From: Haloplanus sp.
Lineage (GTDB): Archaea; Halobacteriota; Halobacteria; Halobacteriales; Haloferacaceae
Assembly (NCBI RefSeq): GCF_028275055.1
Contig: NZ_JAQCNJ010000021.1
Coordinates: 1 to 46,108 of the forward strand
DNA: 46,108 nucleotides
Direction: 5' to 3'
The notes beneath the pieces were generated by a model. That model saw nothing but the letters and a program-made list of their open reading frames with translations. It did no database searches and had not been told where the DNA came from. The position numbers were made by a program, and so were the translations under genes. Of the stretch, positions 37,421 to 45,597 are shown piece after piece (position 1 is the stretch's first letter; each line of letters starts with the position of its first letter).

Positions 37421-38281
37421 TCAGTCGCCGACCCACACGGCCCCAAAGGCGTCGAAAAAATCCTCGTCGGTCGCCACGAGCGCGTGTGTCACCCGGAGTT
37501 TCCGCGCCCGGTCGGCCACGTCGTCAACGAACGCATCGACACGCTCGCGGTACCGTTCGGCGAGTCGACCGCCGAAGTACGTCCGCCGGGTCAGCTCAGA
37601 CTCCACGTCCTCGAAGATCGTGTCACCGCCGGCCTCAGGGTCGAGTTCCGCCGGTGAGAGCGTCTGGACGAGTACCACCTCGTTGCGGGCGAGCGCCGCC
37701 ACGCCCGCCTCTAACCCGTCGAGGTCGCCGATACAGTCCGTAACGATGACCACCAACGACCGCGACCGGATCGATGCCGCGTACGCTTCAAGCGCCGCCT
37801 TGAAATCCGTCTCGCCCTCGGGGGTCGTCTCGTTGAGGCGGTCGACGAGCGCCAACACCTCCCCCCGCGTCGATCTGCCGGTGTCGAGCCGTTCGGTCCG
37901 GTCGGTGAACAGTGACAGCCGAAAGTCGTCGTGTTCCTCGGCGGTGAGGTAGGCGTACCCGAGGCCGAGTTTCGCGCTGAACTCGAACTTGTTGTGGTCG
38001 TCGTCGCCGTAATCCATCGACGCGCTCGCGTCTATGAGGACGTGGACGGTAAGATTGCGTTCTTCCTCGAACTGCTTGATAAAGTACTCCTCCGTGCGGG
38101 CGTAGAGCCGCCAGTCGATCAGGCGGGTGTCGTCGCCCGGCGAGTAGCGTCGGTAGTCGCTGAATGTCAACCCCTCGCCGACGCTCGGCGACTCCCGTTC
38201 GCCCTTTTTGACCGCCGTCGTCTGCTGGTCCAGCGACGCATCGAATCGGCCGAGTTCGTCGAGAAAGTCGGGATCGATCAT
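37421..38281 (-). CDS. DUF58 domain protein (VWA-like), last gene of the MoxR operon
   Basis: A 286-residue soluble protein. The DUF58 signature RRYSPGDDTRLIDWRLYART, EEYFIKQFEEERN is at about 44-75, followed by a VWA-like fold with DASASM (84-89). No membrane helix is seen, unlike the larger DUF58 proteins. DUF58 proteins typically work with a MoxR ATPase and VWA partners. Its start lies one base beyond the upstream MoxR stop. It is the sixth and final gene of the leftward operon. Confidence 0.93.
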   Translation of the reverse strand: MIDPDFLDELGRFDASLDQQTTAVKKGERESPSVGEGLTFSDYRRYSPGDDTRLIDWRLYARTEEYFIKQFEEERNLTVHVLIDASASMDYGDDDHNKFEFSAKLGLGYAYLTAEEHDDFRLSLFTDRTERLDTGRSTRGEVLALVDRLNETTPEGETDFKAALEAYAASIRSRSLVVIVTDCIGDLDGLEAGVAALARNEVVLVQTLSPAELDPEAGGDTIFEDVESELTRRTYFGGRLAERYRERVDAFVDDVADRARKLRVTHALVATDEDFFDAFGAVWVGD

Positions 38282-38282
38282 C

Positions 38283-39239
38283 TCAGACCTCGTCAACCAG
38301 CGTCGCGATCACGTCGTCGGCCGTCAGCCCTTCACGTTCCGCCCGGAAGTCGAGCAGGATGCGGTGGCGCAACACCGGCGGGGCCATCTCGGCTACATCC
38401 TCCCACGAGACGTGTGCGCGTCCACGGAGAAACGCCCGTGCCTTCGCCGTGAGGACGAGTCCCATGCTCGCCCGGGGACTCGCGCCGAACTCGACCGTCT
38501 CTGCCTCGCGGGTCGCCCGCACCAGTTCGATCGCCCGGTCGCGCACGTCGTCGGCGATGGGCATCTCGCGGGCCAGCGACTGGATCTGCCGGATCTCCGA
38601 GCGCGTCACCACCGTCTCCACCGGCGGGGCCGACCCCGATCCGCTCCCGGTGTAGAGGTTCACGATGTCGCGTTCCTCCTCCGCGGCGGGGTAATCGAGA
38701 ACGAGTTTCAACAGAAAGCGGTCGGTCTGGGCCTCCGGGAGCGGGTAGGTTCCCTCCTGGTCGACCGGATTCTGCGTCGCCAACACTAAAAAGGGCCGCG
38801 GGAGGTCGTATGTCTCGCCGGCGGCGGTTACCTGCTTTTCCTGCATCGCTTCCAACAGCGCCGCCTGTGTCTTCGGCGTTGCACGGTTTATCTCGTCTGC
38901 GAGAACGATGTTCGCGAAGATCGGCCCCTTGTCGAAGACGAACGCTCTGGTCTCGCCGGAGTCGCGGATGACCTCCGTTCCCGTGATGTCCGACGGCATC
39001 AGGTCCGGCGTGTTCTGCACCCGCGAGAAGTCCAGCCCGGTCACCTCCGCGACGGTCCGAACCATCGTGGTCTTCCCCAGTCCGGGGTTGCTTTCAAGCA
39101 GGGCGTTGCCGTCCGCGATGATACAGACCAGCAGGCGTTCGAGCACGTCCCGTTGGCCGATGATTCGCTTGCCGACCTCCTCGCGGACCTCGGCCAGTCG
39201 CTCCTGCAACACGTCGATGTCGGTGTTTGTCTCGGTCAT
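38283..39239 (-). CDS. MoxR-family AAA+ ATPase of the six-gene operon
   Basis: A 318-residue AAA+ ATPase. Walker A is SNPGLGKTT (50-58), Walker B in IVLADEINRA (111-120), sensor 1 in ATQNP (154-158), the family mark TYPLPEAQTDRF with the arginine finger at 164-175, and an IIGQRD N-terminus. This is the classical MoxR branch that works with DUF58 and membrane VWA proteins, different from the CbbQ-like ATPase at 3036-4091. The ATG at 39239 overlaps the preceding stop by four bases (ATGA); the longer frame to 39836 is read-through antisense to that gene's frame and is rejected. Confidence 0.96.
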   Translation of the reverse strand: MTETNTDIDVLQERLAEVREEVGKRIIGQRDVLERLLVCIIADGNALLESNPGLGKTTMVRTVAEVTGLDFSRVQNTPDLMPSDITGTEVIRDSGETRAFVFDKGPIFANIVLADEINRATPKTQAALLEAMQEKQVTAAGETYDLPRPFLVLATQNPVDQEGTYPLPEAQTDRFLLKLVLDYPAAEEERDIVNLYTGSGSGSAPPVETVVTRSEIRQIQSLAREMPIADDVRDRAIELVRATREAETVEFGASPRASMGLVLTAKARAFLRGRAHVSWEDVAEMAPPVLRHRILLDFRAEREGLTADDVIATLVDEV

Positions 39240-40165
39240 GAGTCGTCGTCCTCCCGGATCCGCAGGTTGTACTCGCGGATCAGGTCCGCATCTTCGAGTC
39301 GCTCGCGTTCGGAAAACCCTGCGCGCTGGCTCTCGACCGTTCCCGAGTCGTCGAATCCGCTCTCGTCGTACGCGGCCGCCGACTCGACGTCGGCGCCGGC
39401 GTCGTTGTCGCCGCTCCCCGAGCCCTCGGTGTCGATGGACGCGTCGAGATTCTCCTCGCCCTCGGGTACGCCCTCCGGTTCGCCGAGGATCGACGACCCG
39501 TCCTCCAACCCGGTGTACTCCGTATCGGTGCCACCGTCCGGTTCGGCCTCGGGCGCCCCACCGCCAGCAAGCGAGAGGTCGACGACGGCGAGTTGGATCG
39601 TCGCGATGCTGACGGCCGCGACGAGGACAACCGTCAGCGCGATCCGTCGGAGGTCGAGAAGGCCAACGCTGGAGGCCGCCCGGAGGTCGTCGAGAACATC
39701 CTCGTAGAGCCGACGCGCCATCCGGGAGCGGCCGCTCTCCCCGCGTTCGACGGCGTCGCGAGCCGTCCGCAAGGCCCCGCGTAGGTCCGGGTTTGCGGCC
39801 TCGAACTGCTCGATCAGCGGCCGGCGCACCCGCCACGCGACCTCCACGACGAGGATAACGACCCCGGCGACGAGACCGACGACGACACCGCTCGCCACCG
39901 TCGAGTCGGCGGGCGCGACGCCCGCGCCACGGAGCGCCGACAGCACGGCACCGGGCAACGAGAGGCGCGTGGGGAGTCCGGGTATGCCGGCGACCGTCGC
40001 GACGAGGTTCGTGAACAGTGTCGCAAGCGTCGCGTCGACAACGGCGTAGATGATCGCCACCTTCCAGCCCTCCCGGCGAATCTGGGTCAGCGCGCGACGG
40101 AGCTTGCGCTCCTCGGGCGGGGGGTCGCCGTCACCGGTGGCAGGGGTGGTCGTCGGCTCGGCCAT
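39236..40165 (-). CDS. Three-TM protein with acidic tail, MoxR operon
   Basis: A 309-residue membrane protein. TM helices lie at about 36-60, 89-110 and 174-196, with a basic helix-rich loop between the second and third (residues 111-173, RVRRPLIEQFEAANPDLRGA and more). The last 110 residues are a disordered acidic Asp/Glu/Ser/Gly tail, likely on the outer or salt-exposed face. No catalytic motif is visible. It starts two bases after the coiled-coil gene's stop and its own stop overlaps the MoxR start by four bases. It may anchor or scaffold the AAA+/VWA machine; I do not recognise the family. Confidence 0.8.
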   Translation of the reverse strand: MAEPTTTPATGDGDPPPEERKLRRALTQIRREGWKVAIIYAVVDATLATLFTNLVATVAGIPGLPTRLSLPGAVLSALRGAGVAPADSTVASGVVVGLVAGVVILVVEVAWRVRRPLIEQFEAANPDLRGALRTARDAVERGESGRSRMARRLYEDVLDDLRAASSVGLLDLRRIALTVVLVAAVSIATIQLAVVDLSLAGGGAPEAEPDGGTDTEYTGLEDGSSILGEPEGVPEGEENLDASIDTEGSGSGDNDAGADVESAAAYDESGFDDSGTVESQRAGFSERERLEDADLIREYNLRIREDDDS

Positions 40166-40167
40166 TG

Positions 40168-40821
40168 TCAGTTACACTCCGGCGGCGGGTCGTCGACCTC
40201 GGCACACACCGCCGCGAGGTCGCTCTCTGTTTCGCTGAGTTCGTCCCGAAGGTTTTGATTCTCCACGCGGAGGTTCTGGTTCTCCGTTTCTAAACTGCTG
40301 ATCTCGGATTCGAGTTGTGACACCTGATCGTTCAGCTCGTCGACGTCGGCCTGCAGTTCGTCGCGTTCCGTCCGGAGCTCATCGTTTTCGGTTTCGAGGC
40401 TCGAGACCTCCGACCGGAGCTGTTCGTTCCGGGTTTCCAGTTCGTTCGCCCGTTGTTGTAACTCCTCGACCCGGTTGCGAGCAGACTGGAGATCCTGCCG
40501 GGTCGAGGCGAGTTCCTGCTCGGTCGACTCCAGTTGCCCTTCCGTTTCTTCGAGGTCTTCCGACACCTGTCCTACGTCGCTTCGGGTGGTCTGTAGGCTC
40601 TCGTTGAGATCCTGCAGCCGCTGGCGGGTCTGCTGGAGTTCGCTCTCGGTCGACCGGAGGTTCTCCCGCAGGCGCTCGTTCTCCTGGCGGAGCTGGCTGT
40701 TCTCCGTATCGAGATCCTCGACCGACTCCTGATAGTACAACGTCGCGCCCGCGGTCCCGGCGACCGACAGGCAGATCAAAAGGGCGAGGGCGAGGTTGAT
40801 CGATCGGCCAATGAGGCTCAT
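40168..40821 (-). CDS. Membrane-anchored coiled-coil protein, MoxR operon
   Basis: A 217-residue protein with one N-terminal helix (about 8-30, INLALALLICLSVAGTAG) followed by roughly 170 residues of almost unbroken heptads, such as LRQENERLRENLRSTESELQ, EELQQRANELETRNEQLRSE and LESEISSLETENQNLRVENQ. The end has two Cys (AVCAEVDDPPPECN). It should form a long rod tied to the membrane. Its start overlaps the upstream VWA stop by four bases. A tether or spacer in the MoxR/VWA machine is the natural inference; I know no described function. Confidence 0.85.
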   Translation of the reverse strand: MSLIGRSINLALALLICLSVAGTAGATLYYQESVEDLDTENSQLRQENERLRENLRSTESELQQTRQRLQDLNESLQTTRSDVGQVSEDLEETEGQLESTEQELASTRQDLQSARNRVEELQQRANELETRNEQLRSEVSSLETENDELRTERDELQADVDELNDQVSQLESEISSLETENQNLRVENQNLRDELSETESDLAAVCAEVDDPPPECN

Positions 40822-43193
40822 GGGAGACCGCTCTCACGGGTAGTTCGGCCGTTGTACACTTGAAGCCGCCGGACAACCACCTCGGTCAGGAACAGGAGTA
40901 GGGCGGCGGTCAACAACGCCCAGTCCCACGACCGCCGCACATCGCGCACGCGGGTCGACTGCTGGCGGGCGAACGCGGCGATCTCCGTGGCGTCGTTGCG
41001 CCCGAACTGCTGGCCGCCGGTCGCCCGCACGGCCTCGGTGAGCGCCGCCGACGTGCCGAAGCCGGCGTACTCCGCGGGGTAGTTGGCGGCGTAGGTCGCG
41101 CCCGCAACCGTCCCGAACCCGACCGACTCGGGGGTCGTCTGTGCGCGGTAGACGTTCTCGTCGACGGCGCTGAACGTGAGCTCCGTCCCCTCGGGTGGCG
41201 AGACACCACGGTAGACGACCGTCGTCGGCTCCCCGACCCGCGTGTCGGCCACGTCAGTGACCCCCGTCGCTTTCCGCTCCGGATCGCCGATGGCGTAGTT
41301 GACGGACTTGGTGACCAGCAGGGAGTCCGGCCGTCGGAGCAAGCCGTCGAGCCCTCCGGTGTCGTCGTAGGCCGTGATCGTTGCGACCCGCCCGAGCCCG
41401 TACCGCCACGAGGCAACGGCGGGCGTGCCGTCCGAACCGGCGACGAGAAGGTCCGCGCCCGGCCGCATCGAGACGTCGTTGACACGGCCGGGGGTCGACT
41501 CCAGCGTGACGCCACTCGTGATGAAGTGTGTCGAGTCGACGACGGTCAGACCCTCGCCCTGGAACTGTCGGCTTCCACCGCCGAACAGGAGGCGCAGACG
41601 CTCGGTTTCGTCGGCGCGGAAGTAGTTGCCCCCGGACTCCTCTGCGATTCGCCGGAGAACGCCCTCGTTGACGTTCCGCCCGGCCCCGACGGCGATAACG
41701 CGGACCCCCTGTCGACCGAGCGCGTTCGCCACGACTGCCGACCGACTCGCGGTGTCACCGCCGTCACTGACGAGGATGACCGTCCCACGCTGCCCGCCGA
41801 GCATCTCCTCGGCCCCCCGGAGCCCGTTTGCGATGTCCGTCGCGCCGCCGGCCTGCAGGCGACGAATCCGGTCCTCGACGTCGGCGCGTCCCTCGCCCAG
41901 TCGAACGGGGTCGGCGACGCTGTAGGCCCGCTGGTTGAACCCGACGACGCCAACGGTGTTCTCATCATCGAGTTGTGAGAGGGCGTCGAGTGCGATGGCT
42001 TTCTGGATCCGCATCCCGTCATCGGCGCTCCCCGAAACGTCGATCAGCATGACGATGCGTGTACTCCCCGGACGCGACTCGCCGAACGTGACCGGGAGCA
42101 TCGAGGCAACCGAGGAGTTGGCGTAGTTCCCGTTCTCAAAACTGTCCGGGCCGCCAGCCATCAACAGCCCCCCACCGTCGATAACGAATCGCTGGAGTTC
42201 GTCGACGTTCCCCATGTCCCCGGCGGCGACGTTCTGGACGACCACCGCGTAGTACGGGTCGAGATTTTCGGGGACCGACTCGGCCGTCTCGACATCGTAC
42301 AACTGGTTCAGATACTCGCGGAGCGGGTACTCCCCGCGGGAGACATACAGCACGCGGGGTTGATCGACGACGCGGACGGTCTTTCGCGCCACGTCGTTGA
42401 CCTCGAACTCGTCGTCGCCGTCGATTTCGGCCGTGATCCGGTGGTCGCCCGTCGACTCGAACGTATGCGAGACGACAACGCTTCCCGTCCCCTCCGCGAC
42501 CCGTTCGCTCGTGACCTGTTCGCCGTCGACGGAGACGGTCACCTCGACCGGGTCGGTGGCCCGAACACCGGAAACCTGCACCAGATACTGGCTTTCGACG
42601 CCGACGCTCGCCTTGCTCGGTCCGGAGACGGCGACGTAGCGCTCGGTCCGCGTCGGGTCGGGAGAGACGGCGCTGATCGTGGCGTTCACGGAGCGTGCGA
42701 ACTCAGCCGTCTCGGCGAGGCGCCGCCCGTCGGTGACCTGGCCGTCGGAGACGACGACGACCGAGCCGTTCTTGCGGACGTTCGCGGCGACACCGTCGCC
42801 GATCCGCGAGTCGGTCCCCTGCCCGACCGTCGAGACGGTCACCGGCACCCCTTCGGCCTCGATGTCCTCGGCCAACCGCTCGGCGACCGCCGGCGAGACG
42901 GTCGTGCTGTCCGAGCGGTCGACCAGCATCGACACGCTCGGCTCTCCCTGCGTTTCGGTCGTGACGACGGTGAAGGGACCGGCGGCCGAGACGACGATCA
43001 GGGTCGCAACGACCAGTCTGGCGGCAAGCAGGAGTCGCCGACTCCGCCGTGAGGCCATCCCGGACGCCCGGTATCGGACGAGCAACAGAAGCGTGGCGAC
43101 GGCGGCCGGCAACGCGAGCAACGCCGCCGGCCGCTCGAGGCCGACGACCGCCCCCCCGACTGTCGTCCGGACCGACAAAAGCAGCCACATCAC
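40818..43193 (-). CDS. Large membrane VWA protein, MoxR operon
   Basis: A 791-residue membrane protein. Two N-terminal helices (about 20-40 and 52-75) precede a soluble region. The first VWA-like half has a weak MIDAS (VDRSDSTT, about 92), then a beta-sandwich (KASVGVESQYLVQVSGVRAT) and a glutamine-amidotransferase-like part (RFVIDGGGLLMAGGPDSFEN). A canonical VWA domain follows with DVSGSADDG (D385), TDIANGLRGAEEM and VSDGGD. A C-terminal helix lies near 762-778. This resembles BatB/BatD-like partners of MoxR. Its stop overlaps the coiled-coil start, and its start overlaps the upstream gene's stop, by four bases each. Confidence 0.92.
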   Translation of the reverse strand: MMWLLLSVRTTVGGAVVGLERPAALLALPAAVATLLLLVRYRASGMASRRSRRLLLAARLVVATLIVVSAAGPFTVVTTETQGEPSVSMLVDRSDSTTVSPAVAERLAEDIEAEGVPVTVSTVGQGTDSRIGDGVAANVRKNGSVVVVSDGQVTDGRRLAETAEFARSVNATISAVSPDPTRTERYVAVSGPSKASVGVESQYLVQVSGVRATDPVEVTVSVDGEQVTSERVAEGTGSVVVSHTFESTGDHRITAEIDGDDEFEVNDVARKTVRVVDQPRVLYVSRGEYPLREYLNQLYDVETAESVPENLDPYYAVVVQNVAAGDMGNVDELQRFVIDGGGLLMAGGPDSFENGNYANSSVASMLPVTFGESRPGSTRIVMLIDVSGSADDGMRIQKAIALDALSQLDDENTVGVVGFNQRAYSVADPVRLGEGRADVEDRIRRLQAGGATDIANGLRGAEEMLGGQRGTVILVSDGGDTASRSAVVANALGRQGVRVIAVGAGRNVNEGVLRRIAEESGGNYFRADETERLRLLFGGGSRQFQGEGLTVVDSTHFITSGVTLESTPGRVNDVSMRPGADLLVAGSDGTPAVASWRYGLGRVATITAYDDTGGLDGLLRRPDSLLVTKSVNYAIGDPERKATGVTDVADTRVGEPTTVVYRGVSPPEGTELTFSAVDENVYRAQTTPESVGFGTVAGATYAANYPAEYAGFGTSAALTEAVRATGGQQFGRNDATEIAAFARQQSTRVRDVRRSWDWALLTAALLLFLTEVVVRRLQVYNGRTTRESGLP

Positions 43194-44992
43194 AGATCAC
43201 CCCGGCGACGGAGAAAGGCCACCTCGCCGACGAGAACGAGCAACGCGACCAGCGCGACGAGGGGCGTCAGCGGGCGGGGAACCTGCCGTTCCTCCTCCCG
43301 CGCCCGGACACCGGTCACTCCCTCGCGCTCGTCGAGCGGCGCCGCGGCCACGTCCGACTCGGCCTCGCTGTACAACGACACACCGAGCAGGCGGTCGTCG
43401 CTGACGGCGTAGAACCCCGCCCTGTCGAGCGGAACCGACCGTGCCGAGACGGTTCTGTCGGGTGTTCTGACCTCGGTTGTGTCGGAAAACCGGAGTACCG
43501 ATCCGGTTTCACGGTTCAGGCTGTCGAGCGACTCCCGGCCGGCCAGATAGAACACCGCCCGCTTCCAGAAGACGGGGTATTGGTAGTTGAACCGGAAGGG
43601 GTCGGAGTCGGCGACGTAGCCGTAGTAGAGGACACGACCCGCTTCTCGTTGCTCCGTCGCGACGATCGGCGTTCCGTCTCCGGTGCTGACGAGGGCCGTC
43701 CCGGACCGGAGCGACCCCTGGAGGTAGCCCTCCGGCGGCGGGAAGTCGATCCCGCGGGTGAGTTCGTCGTTCGCCGTCCGTCCGATCGAGGGATTGGTTC
43801 CGGCACCGGTCGGCGAGAGGAGAAGAAGGTCGCCGTAGGCCTCCGGCGGCGACTCCTGTGCTACAACCCCGACACCGCCGCCCGCGTCGAGAAGGTCGCG
43901 GCCGGCCTCGACGTTACCCCGAAGGAGGCGTTCGCCCGCCACATCACCGTAGAGAACCACGTCGTAGCCGTTCTCGACCGTTGTCGGCGGTGCGTCGACC
44001 GTGAGTTGAACCTCGTCGATCACCGAGAGCGCGGTCGTGAGATACCGATTCCGATCGTTCGTCAACAACAGGACGTCGACCGTCGGGTCCGGCGGGGCGG
44101 CGACGTACGCCACGTCGTCCGTGGGAAAGGAGTCACCCGGCGTCACCCGCGCCTCGCCGCCGCCGGCGGGAACAGGCAGCGTTACCCGTTCGACGTCGCC
44201 GGGAGCGAGCGTGAGCGAGCGACGGCGGTCACCGAGAACCATCGACCGTGTCGTGGGCTCGTCGCCGAAGTTTTGCACGGTGAGCGTGACGTTACGTCCC
44301 GAAAAAGAACGGTCCACGATGCCGACGTTGTCCTCGCCGCCGCCGGCGAACTGCCGGAGGTCGACCCGCAAACCACGGGCGCGGGCCGACTGGACGGCCT
44401 CGGCCCACGCCGCGTCGTCGGCGAAGTCGCTGAACACGACGACCCGGGCGTTCTCGCCGGCGATGGAGGCCGCCTGCGAGATGGCACCGCCCAGATCGGC
44501 CGGTGTCTCGCTGACGGTCAGGCCATCGAGCGTCGACGCCACCTCCTCGTTACCGCCCGAACGGAGAACGATTCGGTTCTCGTTTCCGGCGAGCACGACG
44601 GCGTTGGTTCCGGTGGTCGCCTCGCGGGCCGCCGCCACGGCCGCGTCGAAGCGGGATCCGCTCCCGGTTTCGGCGGCCATGCTCGCGCTCCCGTCGAGGA
44701 CGACAACGGTCTCCTCGACGGTTTGGCTCTCGGAAACGGTGACGTACGGCCCGGCAAGCGAGACGGCCAGGGCAACGATGACGAACAGTTGCAGACACAG
44801 GAGGAGACTCCGCTTGAGGCGTTCGAGAAGGGGGTTCGCCGCGTCCTCGCCCTCCTCGTCGAACAGGTACCGGAGCGTCGGGAGTTCGACCCGACGGGGG
44901 TCGGGCTGGACGAGATACAGCACGATAACGGGAACGACCGCGAGGAGGGTGAGAAGCCCGAACGGGGAGAGGAAGGCGTCTGCGAGGGCCAT
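43190..44992 (-). CDS. BatA-like VWA membrane protein, first gene of the MoxR operon
   Basis: A 600-residue protein. An N-terminal BatA-type hairpin (helices 10-28 and 62-80 with LSPFGLLTLLAVVPVIVLYL and a basic loop) is followed by a VWA domain with DGSASM (100-105). After it come a beta-rich part and a DUF4159-like / glutamine-amidotransferase-like region (NGYDVVLYGDVAGERLLRGN). A last helix is at about 573-592. It should sit in the cell membrane with the VWA domain on one side. A GATATTTC element about 53 bases upstream on the minus strand may drive the whole operon, leaving a short leader. Confidence 0.92.
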   Translation of the reverse strand: MALADAFLSPFGLLTLLAVVPVIVLYLVQPDPRRVELPTLRYLFDEEGEDAANPLLERLKRSLLLCLQLFVIVALAVSLAGPYVTVSESQTVEETVVVLDGSASMAAETGSGSRFDAAVAAAREATTGTNAVVLAGNENRIVLRSGGNEEVASTLDGLTVSETPADLGGAISQAASIAGENARVVVFSDFADDAAWAEAVQSARARGLRVDLRQFAGGGEDNVGIVDRSFSGRNVTLTVQNFGDEPTTRSMVLGDRRRSLTLAPGDVERVTLPVPAGGGEARVTPGDSFPTDDVAYVAAPPDPTVDVLLLTNDRNRYLTTALSVIDEVQLTVDAPPTTVENGYDVVLYGDVAGERLLRGNVEAGRDLLDAGGGVGVVAQESPPEAYGDLLLLSPTGAGTNPSIGRTANDELTRGIDFPPPEGYLQGSLRSGTALVSTGDGTPIVATEQREAGRVLYYGYVADSDPFRFNYQYPVFWKRAVFYLAGRESLDSLNRETGSVLRFSDTTEVRTPDRTVSARSVPLDRAGFYAVSDDRLLGVSLYSEAESDVAAAPLDEREGVTGVRAREEERQVPRPLTPLVALVALLVLVGEVAFLRRRGDL

Positions 44993-45108: not shown

Positions 45109-45597
45109 ATGGCCGATAAGCTGGAGCTGCTCGACGTGCTTCTCGATAACGCCCGCGAGAGTTCCGACACCATCGCGCGACAGCTCGGATGTTCGGAGTC
45201 CGATGTCGAGACGATGATCGAAGAACTCGAAAACGAGGGTGCAGTACTCGGATACCAGGCGGTCGTCGACTGGAACCACGTCGACCGTGACCACGTCGAG
45301 GCCGAGGTGGAACTCAACCTCGAACTCGACCGCGAGACAAAGTACGCCGACGTCGCGGGCCGGATCGCGAAGTTCGACGAGGTGACCGCGCTCCGACTGG
45401 TCTCCGGCGACTACGACTTCGACGTGACCGTCGAGGGCGACTCGATGCGCGATGTCTCGATGTTCGTCTCGGAACAGATCGCGCCGATCCCCGAGGTGAC
45501 CCAGACGGTGACCCACTTCGTGATGAACACGTACAAGAACCGCGGACTCGATTTCACCGACCGAGACGAGGACGACCGGTTGTCGGTCTCGCCATGA
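45109..45597 (+). CDS. Lrp/AsnC-family transcriptional regulator
   Basis: A 162-residue regulator. The N-terminal HTH (MADKLELLDVLLDNARESSD, TIARQLGCSESDVETMIEEL) is followed by the typical linker YQAVVDWN and an Lrp-type RAM domain with AKFDEVTALRLVSGDYDFDV, which binds amino acids or similar ligands. The acidic C-terminal extension (RDEDDRLSVSP) is longer than usual. It overlaps the aminotransferase start by four bases (ATGA), so the two are coupled and it likely controls amino-acid metabolism. Confidence 0.94.
   Translation: MADKLELLDVLLDNARESSDTIARQLGCSESDVETMIEELENEGAVLGYQAVVDWNHVDRDHVEAEVELNLELDRETKYADVAGRIAKFDEVTALRLVSGDYDFDVTVEGDSMRDVSMFVSEQIAPIPEVTQTVTHFVMNTYKNRGLDFTDRDEDDRLSVSP

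Follow-up and report, generated by a model that had tools for sequence, protein, structure and literature searches.

Membrane operons that combine MoxR with VWA proteins are widespread, and their role in the cell envelope is unsettled. The Bat operon of Bacteroides, Leptospira and Borrelia is composed of MoxR, DUF58, BatA, BatB, BatC and BatD. Part of this composition is given in the available text of PMC5700661, which also refers, by citation, to a related Rhizobium operon whose mutation causes envelope and morphology defects. A MoxR-vWA module is mentioned for hyphae- and spore-forming haloarchaea in the available sections of PMC10067837, with too little detail to be equated with the locus described here. 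That locus is a six-gene operon within a stretch of 46,108 nucleotides (the window) from contig NZ_JAQCNJ010000021.1 of a Haloplanus sp., a draft haloarchaeal genome of 102 contigs. It shares with the Bat operon MoxR, DUF58, a BatA-type VWA protein and a second membrane VWA protein closest to BatB (3ibs), and differs from it in two added conserved parts, a DUF7502 protein and a membrane-anchored coiled-coil rod. No TPR (BatC) or BatD was found among the Pfam matches listed for the six proteins (for the rod, the best 25 of 181).

An earlier note on this DNA had placed here a BatA-like VWA protein, a large VWA protein, a coiled coil, a protein with three transmembrane (TM) segments and an acidic tail, MoxR and DUF58, and all six were confirmed where it had put them:

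43190..44992, minus strand: BatA-type protein (P0001), 600 aa; Pfam BatA 4e-13, DUF7408 6e-73
40818..43190, minus strand: large VWA protein, VWA2 (P0002), 790 aa from ATG 43190, GTG 43193 also being possible; Pfam VWA 3e-17
40168..40821, minus strand: membrane-anchored coiled-coil rod (P0003), 217 aa; from family alignment and heptad analysis
39236..40165, minus strand: DUF7502 protein (P0004), 309 aa; PF24334 E 2e-105
38283..39239, minus strand: MoxR AAA+ ATPase (P0005), 318 aa; AAA_3 1e-60
37421..38281, minus strand: DUF58 protein (P0006), 286 aa from ATG 38281; DUF58 1.5e-38

The six open reading frames (ORFs) all lie on the minus strand, from 44992 to 37421, packed head to tail; neighbouring frames either share 1 or 4 bases or leave 1 or 2 bases between them. 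The tight packing described earlier was borne out. The BatA/VWA2 junction, TGATG, overlaps by 1 base if the start ATG 43190 is used, and by 4 with the listed ORF start GTG 43193; by one chosen start rule the 1-base overlap was present in 53 of 57 haloarchaeal loci. VWA2 and the coiled coil overlap by 4 bases, the coiled coil and DUF7502 are separated by 2 bases, DUF7502 and MoxR overlap by 4, and MoxR is followed after 1 base by DUF58 with start ATG 38281 (the listed ORF start is TTG 38296).

To examine conservation, 60 regions from the class were taken, 57 of them from 56 of the 96 other genomes above the DUF7502 cut-off and three (L091-L093) from matches below it; no operon was found around these three. 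The order BatA, VWA2, rod, DUF7502, MoxR, DUF58 was present in the window and in 57/57 other homologous haloarchaeal loci examined, as the earlier note had proposed to check. Among these, L080 stops at a contig edge after DUF7502, VWA2 of L035 is split over two overlapping frames, and in L040 DUF58 precedes MoxR in one listing and takes the usual order under another start choice. Both proteins that the earlier note could not name recur beside MoxR, so the condition by which that note would have been refuted, their absence from other MoxR loci, did not hold. Chance is excluded, since the complete unit is conserved at 57 further loci. Profile searches of 60 named related loci found DUF7502 in 59, BatA in 57, VWA2 in 58, MoxR in 60 and DUF58 in 59, which are counts of presence and not of order. 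The best-shared flanking families (thioredoxin-like, EamA and others) reached 16 or 17 of 58 loci; since no flanking family exceeds 17, the sextet is the unit, and further conserved operon genes were rejected. In the window a divergent Lrp/AsnC-family regulator lies at 45109-45597, a gene found at that place in only 7 of 58 loci.

The operon is confined to part of the class. Of 391 haloarchaeal genomes, 97 have DUF7502 above cut-off, and DUF7408, a marker of the BatA-type protein, exceeded its own in the same 97; at E 0.001, DUF7502 matched 100 genomes in 23 of 86 genera. In the source genome the window's DUF7502 match was the sole one, and a second MoxR gene (L194:8899-10026, G000:C56) lies outside the operon. 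Short C-terminal pieces alone matched DUF7502 in L191 (Haloferax massiliensis) and at G267:C2:885956-886084, where VWA2 and the rod (L191) or BatA (G267) are present, which would suggest decay or assembly error. In L085 (7215-8858) rod and DUF7502 share a single open frame of 547 aa, with the DUF7502 start Met likely inside, a fusion or a lost stop in a draft genome; as proof of contact it was set aside because the fused topology is awkward and the genome a single draft. A long VWA2-plus-rod frame in L145 was also discarded; it departs from the VWA2 sequence partway and looks like a frameshift.

From other families of the phylum 40 regions were taken, some genomes supplying two. In 33 of these the order is DUF7502-MoxR-DUF58-BatA-VWA2, a rotation of the haloarchaeal order, so that DUF7502 keeps company with the other four beyond Haloarchaea. 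L119 holds the first four genes of the rotated set and then a contig edge, and the remaining 6 regions have DUF7502 without the gene set. In L117 and L120-L123 DUF7502 stands without a complete MoxR operon nearby; a strong MoxR match lies elsewhere in 4 of these 5 genomes, about 7 kb downstream in G433 (L123), and G542 has only weak ones. A rod-like ORF adjoined DUF7502 in one of the 40 loci by a crude coil filter (L127, genome G600, from a family in which 1 of 40 genomes has DUF7502). With a broader profile, 98 of 392 phylum genomes matched at E 1e-8. Among the control genomes, Haloferax volcanii and Methanosarcina acetivorans both match DUF7502, and the latter suggests that methanogens are among the other-family genomes. 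The gene ahead of DUF7502 looks, on reading without a family search, like prephenate dehydratase in 5 of 13 printed other-family loci.

The rod family is defined by an N-terminal MSxIGxxIN, one TM segment, a YQ motif and unbroken heptads, often with a C-terminal Cys pair; its coil is nearly free of proline (3 Pro in 8013 residues). Its listed matches were all of coil type, the best 25 each from Pfam (of 181 families up to E 1), NCBIfam and PADLOC, and several generic coil models exceeded their own cut-offs. The earlier view that this coil is foreign to described Bat operons was supported.

A motif search found the rod in 108 loci, of which two (L136 and L137) were judged false by eye and dropped, leaving 106; it misses real rods, including L047, L051 and L173. 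In 85 of the 106 a Cys lies downstream, and the distance from the Gln to the first Cys was divisible by 7 in 76 of these. Many loci represent one genome fetched twice, so distinct sequences give the fair count: the membrane-proximal Gln and the distal (first downstream) Cys were separated by whole heptads in 67 of 75, and 16 further distinct sequences have no Cys. The whole-heptad distances take eleven lengths, from 70 to 224 residues (10 to 32 heptads). The eight exceptions are L048, L067, L069, L073, L075, L080, L085 and L160; the Cys of L085 sits in its DUF7502 portion. When the moduli 3, 4, 5, 6, 8, 9 and 11 were tried instead of 7, at most 33 of 75 distances shared a remainder. As controls, the distance between DUF7502 blocks took 22 values in 53 loci, with the commonest remainder in 11, and a second DUF7502 pair took 10 values in 57 loci, with the commonest remainder in 17; a BatA control pair was found in just 10 loci.

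Changes in length were followed on a tree of MoxR, DUF58 and BatA (58 rows, built by a quick method that left 11 of its 55 inner branches open), using the distances of 41 rows; 17 were dropped, namely 14 without Cys, L047 and L051, which the pattern missed, and L085. In one most-parsimonious reconstruction, 18 of 24 length changes were whole heptads (binomial P 3e-11 against 1/7), and 18 of 20 when four basal rows were left out (P 9e-14).

Composition by heptad position, taken from the 67 heptad-multiple sequences and hence from a selected set, showed Leu/Ile/Val/Met at 55-86% in two positions and 0-3% elsewhere, alike in the first 42, the middle and the last 42 residues. Position a holds L (39%), V (23%), N (15%) and I (12%), and position d holds L (58%) and T (20%). 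A core with L/V/N/I at a and L/T at d is the pattern of parallel dimers, and the make-up of the rod fits a parallel dimer. The rod probably lies outside the cell. Because register is held while length varies, the data favour a rigid, phase-locked coil over a ruler of fixed length; rods may become longer or shorter and yet keep the same rotational phase.

The earlier note had guessed that the rod spans or measures a gap below the S-layer. If straight, rods would be roughly 10 to 34 nm long, with a median of about 25 nm, and in 52 of the 67 heptad-multiple rods Gln and Cys are 21 to 25 heptads apart, which would suit a spacer that fixes or gauges how far the S-layer stands from the membrane. Against this stand the whole range of lengths, one-heptad differences within Haloferax (154, 161 and 168 in that genus alone) and within Haloarcula, and the values of 168, 175 and a non-multiple 164 in the window's own genus. 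Measurement is thus not favoured and a spacer or ruler is very unlikely; the fixed-length ruler was rejected as the main explanation on the spread from 10 to 32 heptads. The rod may nevertheless bridge some of the space that lies under the S-layer.

The second added part, P0004, matches DUF7502 (PF24334), a named Pfam family of unknown function, end to end (352.5 bits against a cut-off of 27; model 1-281 of 281). The earlier claim that it is foreign to described Bat operons stood, and the claim that it is unnamed did not. A search of the available literature for the term DUF7502 found no paper. P0004 comprises a two-TM hairpin, a helical domain (FEaaNP..eaLRTARDa), a third TM, an acidic tail and a C-terminal helix; its last 106 residues are 32% Asp+Glu with a net charge of -28. 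In the AlphaFold model (mean predicted local distance difference test score, pLDDT, 73.6; predicted template modelling score 0.52) helices are predicted at 17-59 and 92-114, with shorter ones to 169, then at 172-202, followed by a low-confidence tail and a C-terminal helix at 286-308. A search of the PDB with this model gave no structure match (best E 1.4). Hydropathy and charge would place the middle domain inside and the acidic tail outside. With one choice of start, the DUF7502 proteins of L158 (8-2347) and L173 (8389-9837) carry very long N-terminal extensions ahead of TM1, about 500 aa rich in Asp/Ala in L158 and Gly/Gln-rich repeats in L173.

The remaining four proteins belong to known families. 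In Pfam, P0001 matches BatA and VWA together with DUF7407/DUF7408/DUF7406, P0002 matches VWA, P0005 AAA_3 (MoxR) and P0006 DUF58 (132.6 bits against a cut-off of 23.4). By hydropathy P0001 has three TM segments, P0002 two plus one (a marginal fourth at its N-terminus being disregarded), P0003 one and P0004 three, and P0005 and P0006 have none. The BatA-type protein has two N-terminal TM helices, VWA, DUF7407/DUF7408/DUF7406 and a C-terminal TM (10-28, 63-81 and 575-593). VWA2, read by eye from the secondary structure of its AlphaFold model (pLDDT 81.4), is predicted to have two TM helices, a first VWA-like domain, an Ig-like domain, a Rossmann-like domain enclosing a canonical VWA, a second Ig-like domain and a C-terminal TM; the best PDB match of the model was BatB of Bacteroides (3ibs, E 2e-10). 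All 56 haloarchaeal and 35 other MoxR rows share, without variation, what we take to be the Walker A Lys/Thr, the Walker B Asp-Glu, TQNP and DRF, and P0005 combines AAA_3 with conserved Walker A and B. The Asp of DxSxS is conserved in DUF58 (56/56), BatA (57/57) and both VWA domains of VWA2 (57/57) in haloarchaeal rows, and in DUF58 (34/34), BatA (34/34) and the first (33/33) and second (30/33, with two gaps and one Thr) VWA domains of VWA2 in other-family rows. In haloarchaeal rows the Asp and second Ser are kept in all four VWA-type domains with one exception. The Thr of the metal ion-dependent adhesion site (MIDAS) is present in the second VWA of VWA2 in 57/57 haloarchaeal rows. DUF58 keeps DxSxS and the Asp of its MIDAS; its Thr is at the aligned position in a minority of haloarchaeal rows (17/56), in 34/34 other-family rows and in the window copy. 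From hydropathy and the positive-inside distribution of charge, MoxR and DUF58 would be cytosolic, and the domains of BatA and VWA2 and the rod would lie outside. The available text of PMC5700661 places the VWA domain of a Borrelia Bat-like operon protein with three TM anchors on the periplasmic side.

Another MoxR-based possibility is that the operon belongs to the MoxR-vWA ternary systems of conflict or defence described in the available text of PMC7159879. P0005 exceeded the cut-off of bpMoxR, the MoxR domain found in one such system (44.1 against 27 bits), far under its own AAA_3 score of 203.8. PADLOC at E 0.001 gave no match for five of the proteins and 43 coil-type matches for the rod (best 25 listed), the Pfam, NCBIfam and PADLOC matches listed held no third component (VMAP, iSTAND, FtsH or propeller) or variable effector, and the gene set is invariant among 58 loci. 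Lacking PADLOC support, a defence system was rejected despite the bpMoxR score and is extremely improbable.

At even confidence, we propose that the products of the six genes form a single MoxR/VWA machine, which crosses the membrane and matures or remodels envelope proteins. We infer this function from bacterial Bat/cmd operons, and topology, dimer, complex formation, direction of force and substrates are put forward conditionally with it; the fixed stoichiometry suggested in the earlier note is likewise conjectural. In favour of the proposal are the constant six-gene order, the identical genome sets of DUF7502 and DUF7408, the scarcity of shared flanking genes, the invariant MoxR residues and well-kept DxSxS motifs, the suggested outward VWA domains with their Borrelia parallel, the dimer-like core of the rod and the envelope phenotype of the Rhizobium operon. 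In the cytosol, a MoxR AAA+ ring would work with the soluble, VWA-like DUF58, and its ATPase cycle would be passed through the conserved middle domain of DUF7502 to this membrane partner. Together with the two VWA proteins, each of three TM segments and between them bearing three outside VWA domains, DUF7502 would then act on extracytoplasmic envelope proteins to remodel, assemble or mature them. The rod, parallel and probably dimeric, anchored by one TM helix and often bearing a Cys pair at its tip, would keep the outer components at some distance and in a constant rotational phase, or else guide substrate.

Several observations weigh against this proposal. The one rod outside Haloarchaea (L127) has a Gln-Cys distance of 167, not a multiple of 7, and basal haloarchaeal rods break the rule, which makes it a property of the main haloarchaeal clade; with a rod in just 1 of 40 other-family loci, the rod is also outside the minimal core. 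As 294 of 391 haloarchaeal genomes have no DUF7502 match above cut-off, envelopes of this class do not in general require the operon. Most haloarchaeal rows of DUF58 and BatA lack the MIDAS Thr at the aligned position, which holds it in 17 of 56 and 10 of 57 respectively, and VWA2 alone retains it in every row; metal binding in DUF58 and BatA may therefore be different. Contact between MoxR and DUF7502 is conjecture, the structure predictions are of single chains only, and a literature search found neither an experiment on an archaeal copy nor a description of this archaeal operon.

Two further explanations assign the same parts to other tasks. MoxR and VWA proteins might serve a single enzyme, by loading its cofactor or by activating it, as in the maturation of a metalloenzyme or respiratory complex by NorQ/NorD, CbbQ/CbbO or RavA/ViaA. 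Those pairs are not known to have outward VWA domains and a rod, whereas by the topology suggested here three VWA domains and the rod face outward, and with flanking families in at most 17 of 58 loci no enzyme gene is tied to the locus. Maturation, although the role described for characterised MoxR/VWA pairs in the available text of PMC12657314, is rather unlikely. Alternatively, outside VWA domains could sense a ligand or damage in stress or aerotolerance, with the rod and DUF7502 relaying to a cytosolic MoxR-DUF58 switch. The parts of PMC5700661 at hand discuss Bat-like operons with oxidative stress, and those of PMC6628036 report that the coils of chemoreceptors form classes by pairs of heptads. 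The family matches listed for the six proteins (for the rod, the best 25) include no signalling output domain, the divergent Lrp gene is rarely present, and a sensor is quite unlikely. The proposed envelope machine reaches genetically tractable hosts through the DUF7502 matches of H. volcanii and M. acetivorans, and the heptad rule offers a direct handle on mechanism, whole against part heptads.

Among other known systems, the archaeal arCOG01314 MoxR/vWA secretion-like loci of Makarova et al. (PMC5898192) likewise bring secreted vWA proteins and membrane proteins together with an ATPase of the MoxR/GvpN kind; in the available text their partners are a flavodoxin-like membrane protein and pfam07760 proteins, the term DUF58 is absent, and the single "coiled" passage concerns another locus. 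The alphaproteobacterial cmd-type operon (Sinorhizobium meliloti pSymB, L195; Rhizobium RL3499-RL3502) consists of MoxR-DUF58-DUF4159/BatA. Its MoxR-DUF58-BatA order on pSymB is that of the other phylum families, and the envelope phenotype of Rhizobium belongs to this type. It differs in that BatA of S. meliloti carries DUF4159, which P0001 does not, and in that the S. meliloti annotation, incomplete just past DUF4159, has no DUF7502-like or rod gene.

A bacterial counterpart of the added parts may be present in the MoxR-DUF58-BatA locus of Gemmatirosa (L196), where the ORF after BatA encodes a three-TM DUF4175-like protein (TM segments at 38, 71 and 157) with a similar TM2-TM3 stretch and a C-terminal PPGYRALVDEYFKAL that resembles non-haloarchaeal DUF7502. 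It differs in its length of 1268 aa, with about 1000 aa from TM3 to the C-terminus, and falls just below the DUF4175 cut-off (E 3e-6), the match at 507-671 lying outside the part compared with DUF7502. Its stretch YVERHEPSLDAALVSALEA aligns with the FEaaNP..eaLRTARD block (hhalign P 0.013, probability 3%, not significant), and when 675 ORFs were searched with the non-haloarchaeal DUF7502 profile, its last 20 residues ranked second (E 1.5). It counts against the link that the best match in both DUF7502 profile searches was a chance-looking stretch of 22 residues in another Gemmatirosa frame, at MoxR (E 1.3 with the non-haloarchaeal profile, 0.0015 with the all-archaea profile), and that with the all-archaea profile the DUF4175-like protein was not among the best eight matches listed. 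Against DUF4175, 2 of 23 DUF7502 alignment members matched (best E 0.21) and none of 10 non-haloarchaeal members, and a tblastn search of plasmids for more bacterial DUF4175-like sequences found only Gemmatirosa itself. The link between DUF7502 and the Gemmatirosa protein is suggestive, and their homology is not significant. A bolder and unlikely extension is that the outward rod is a rigid or torsional element of an AAA+ driven envelope machine, its length drifting but its phase locked to the membrane, and that it is the split-out archaeal counterpart of the long extracytoplasmic region within bacterial DUF4175-like proteins, while DUF7502 would be the anchor half in shortened form. If that were true, one ancient MoxR-DUF58-BatA-anchor-coil machine would be common to bacteria and archaea.

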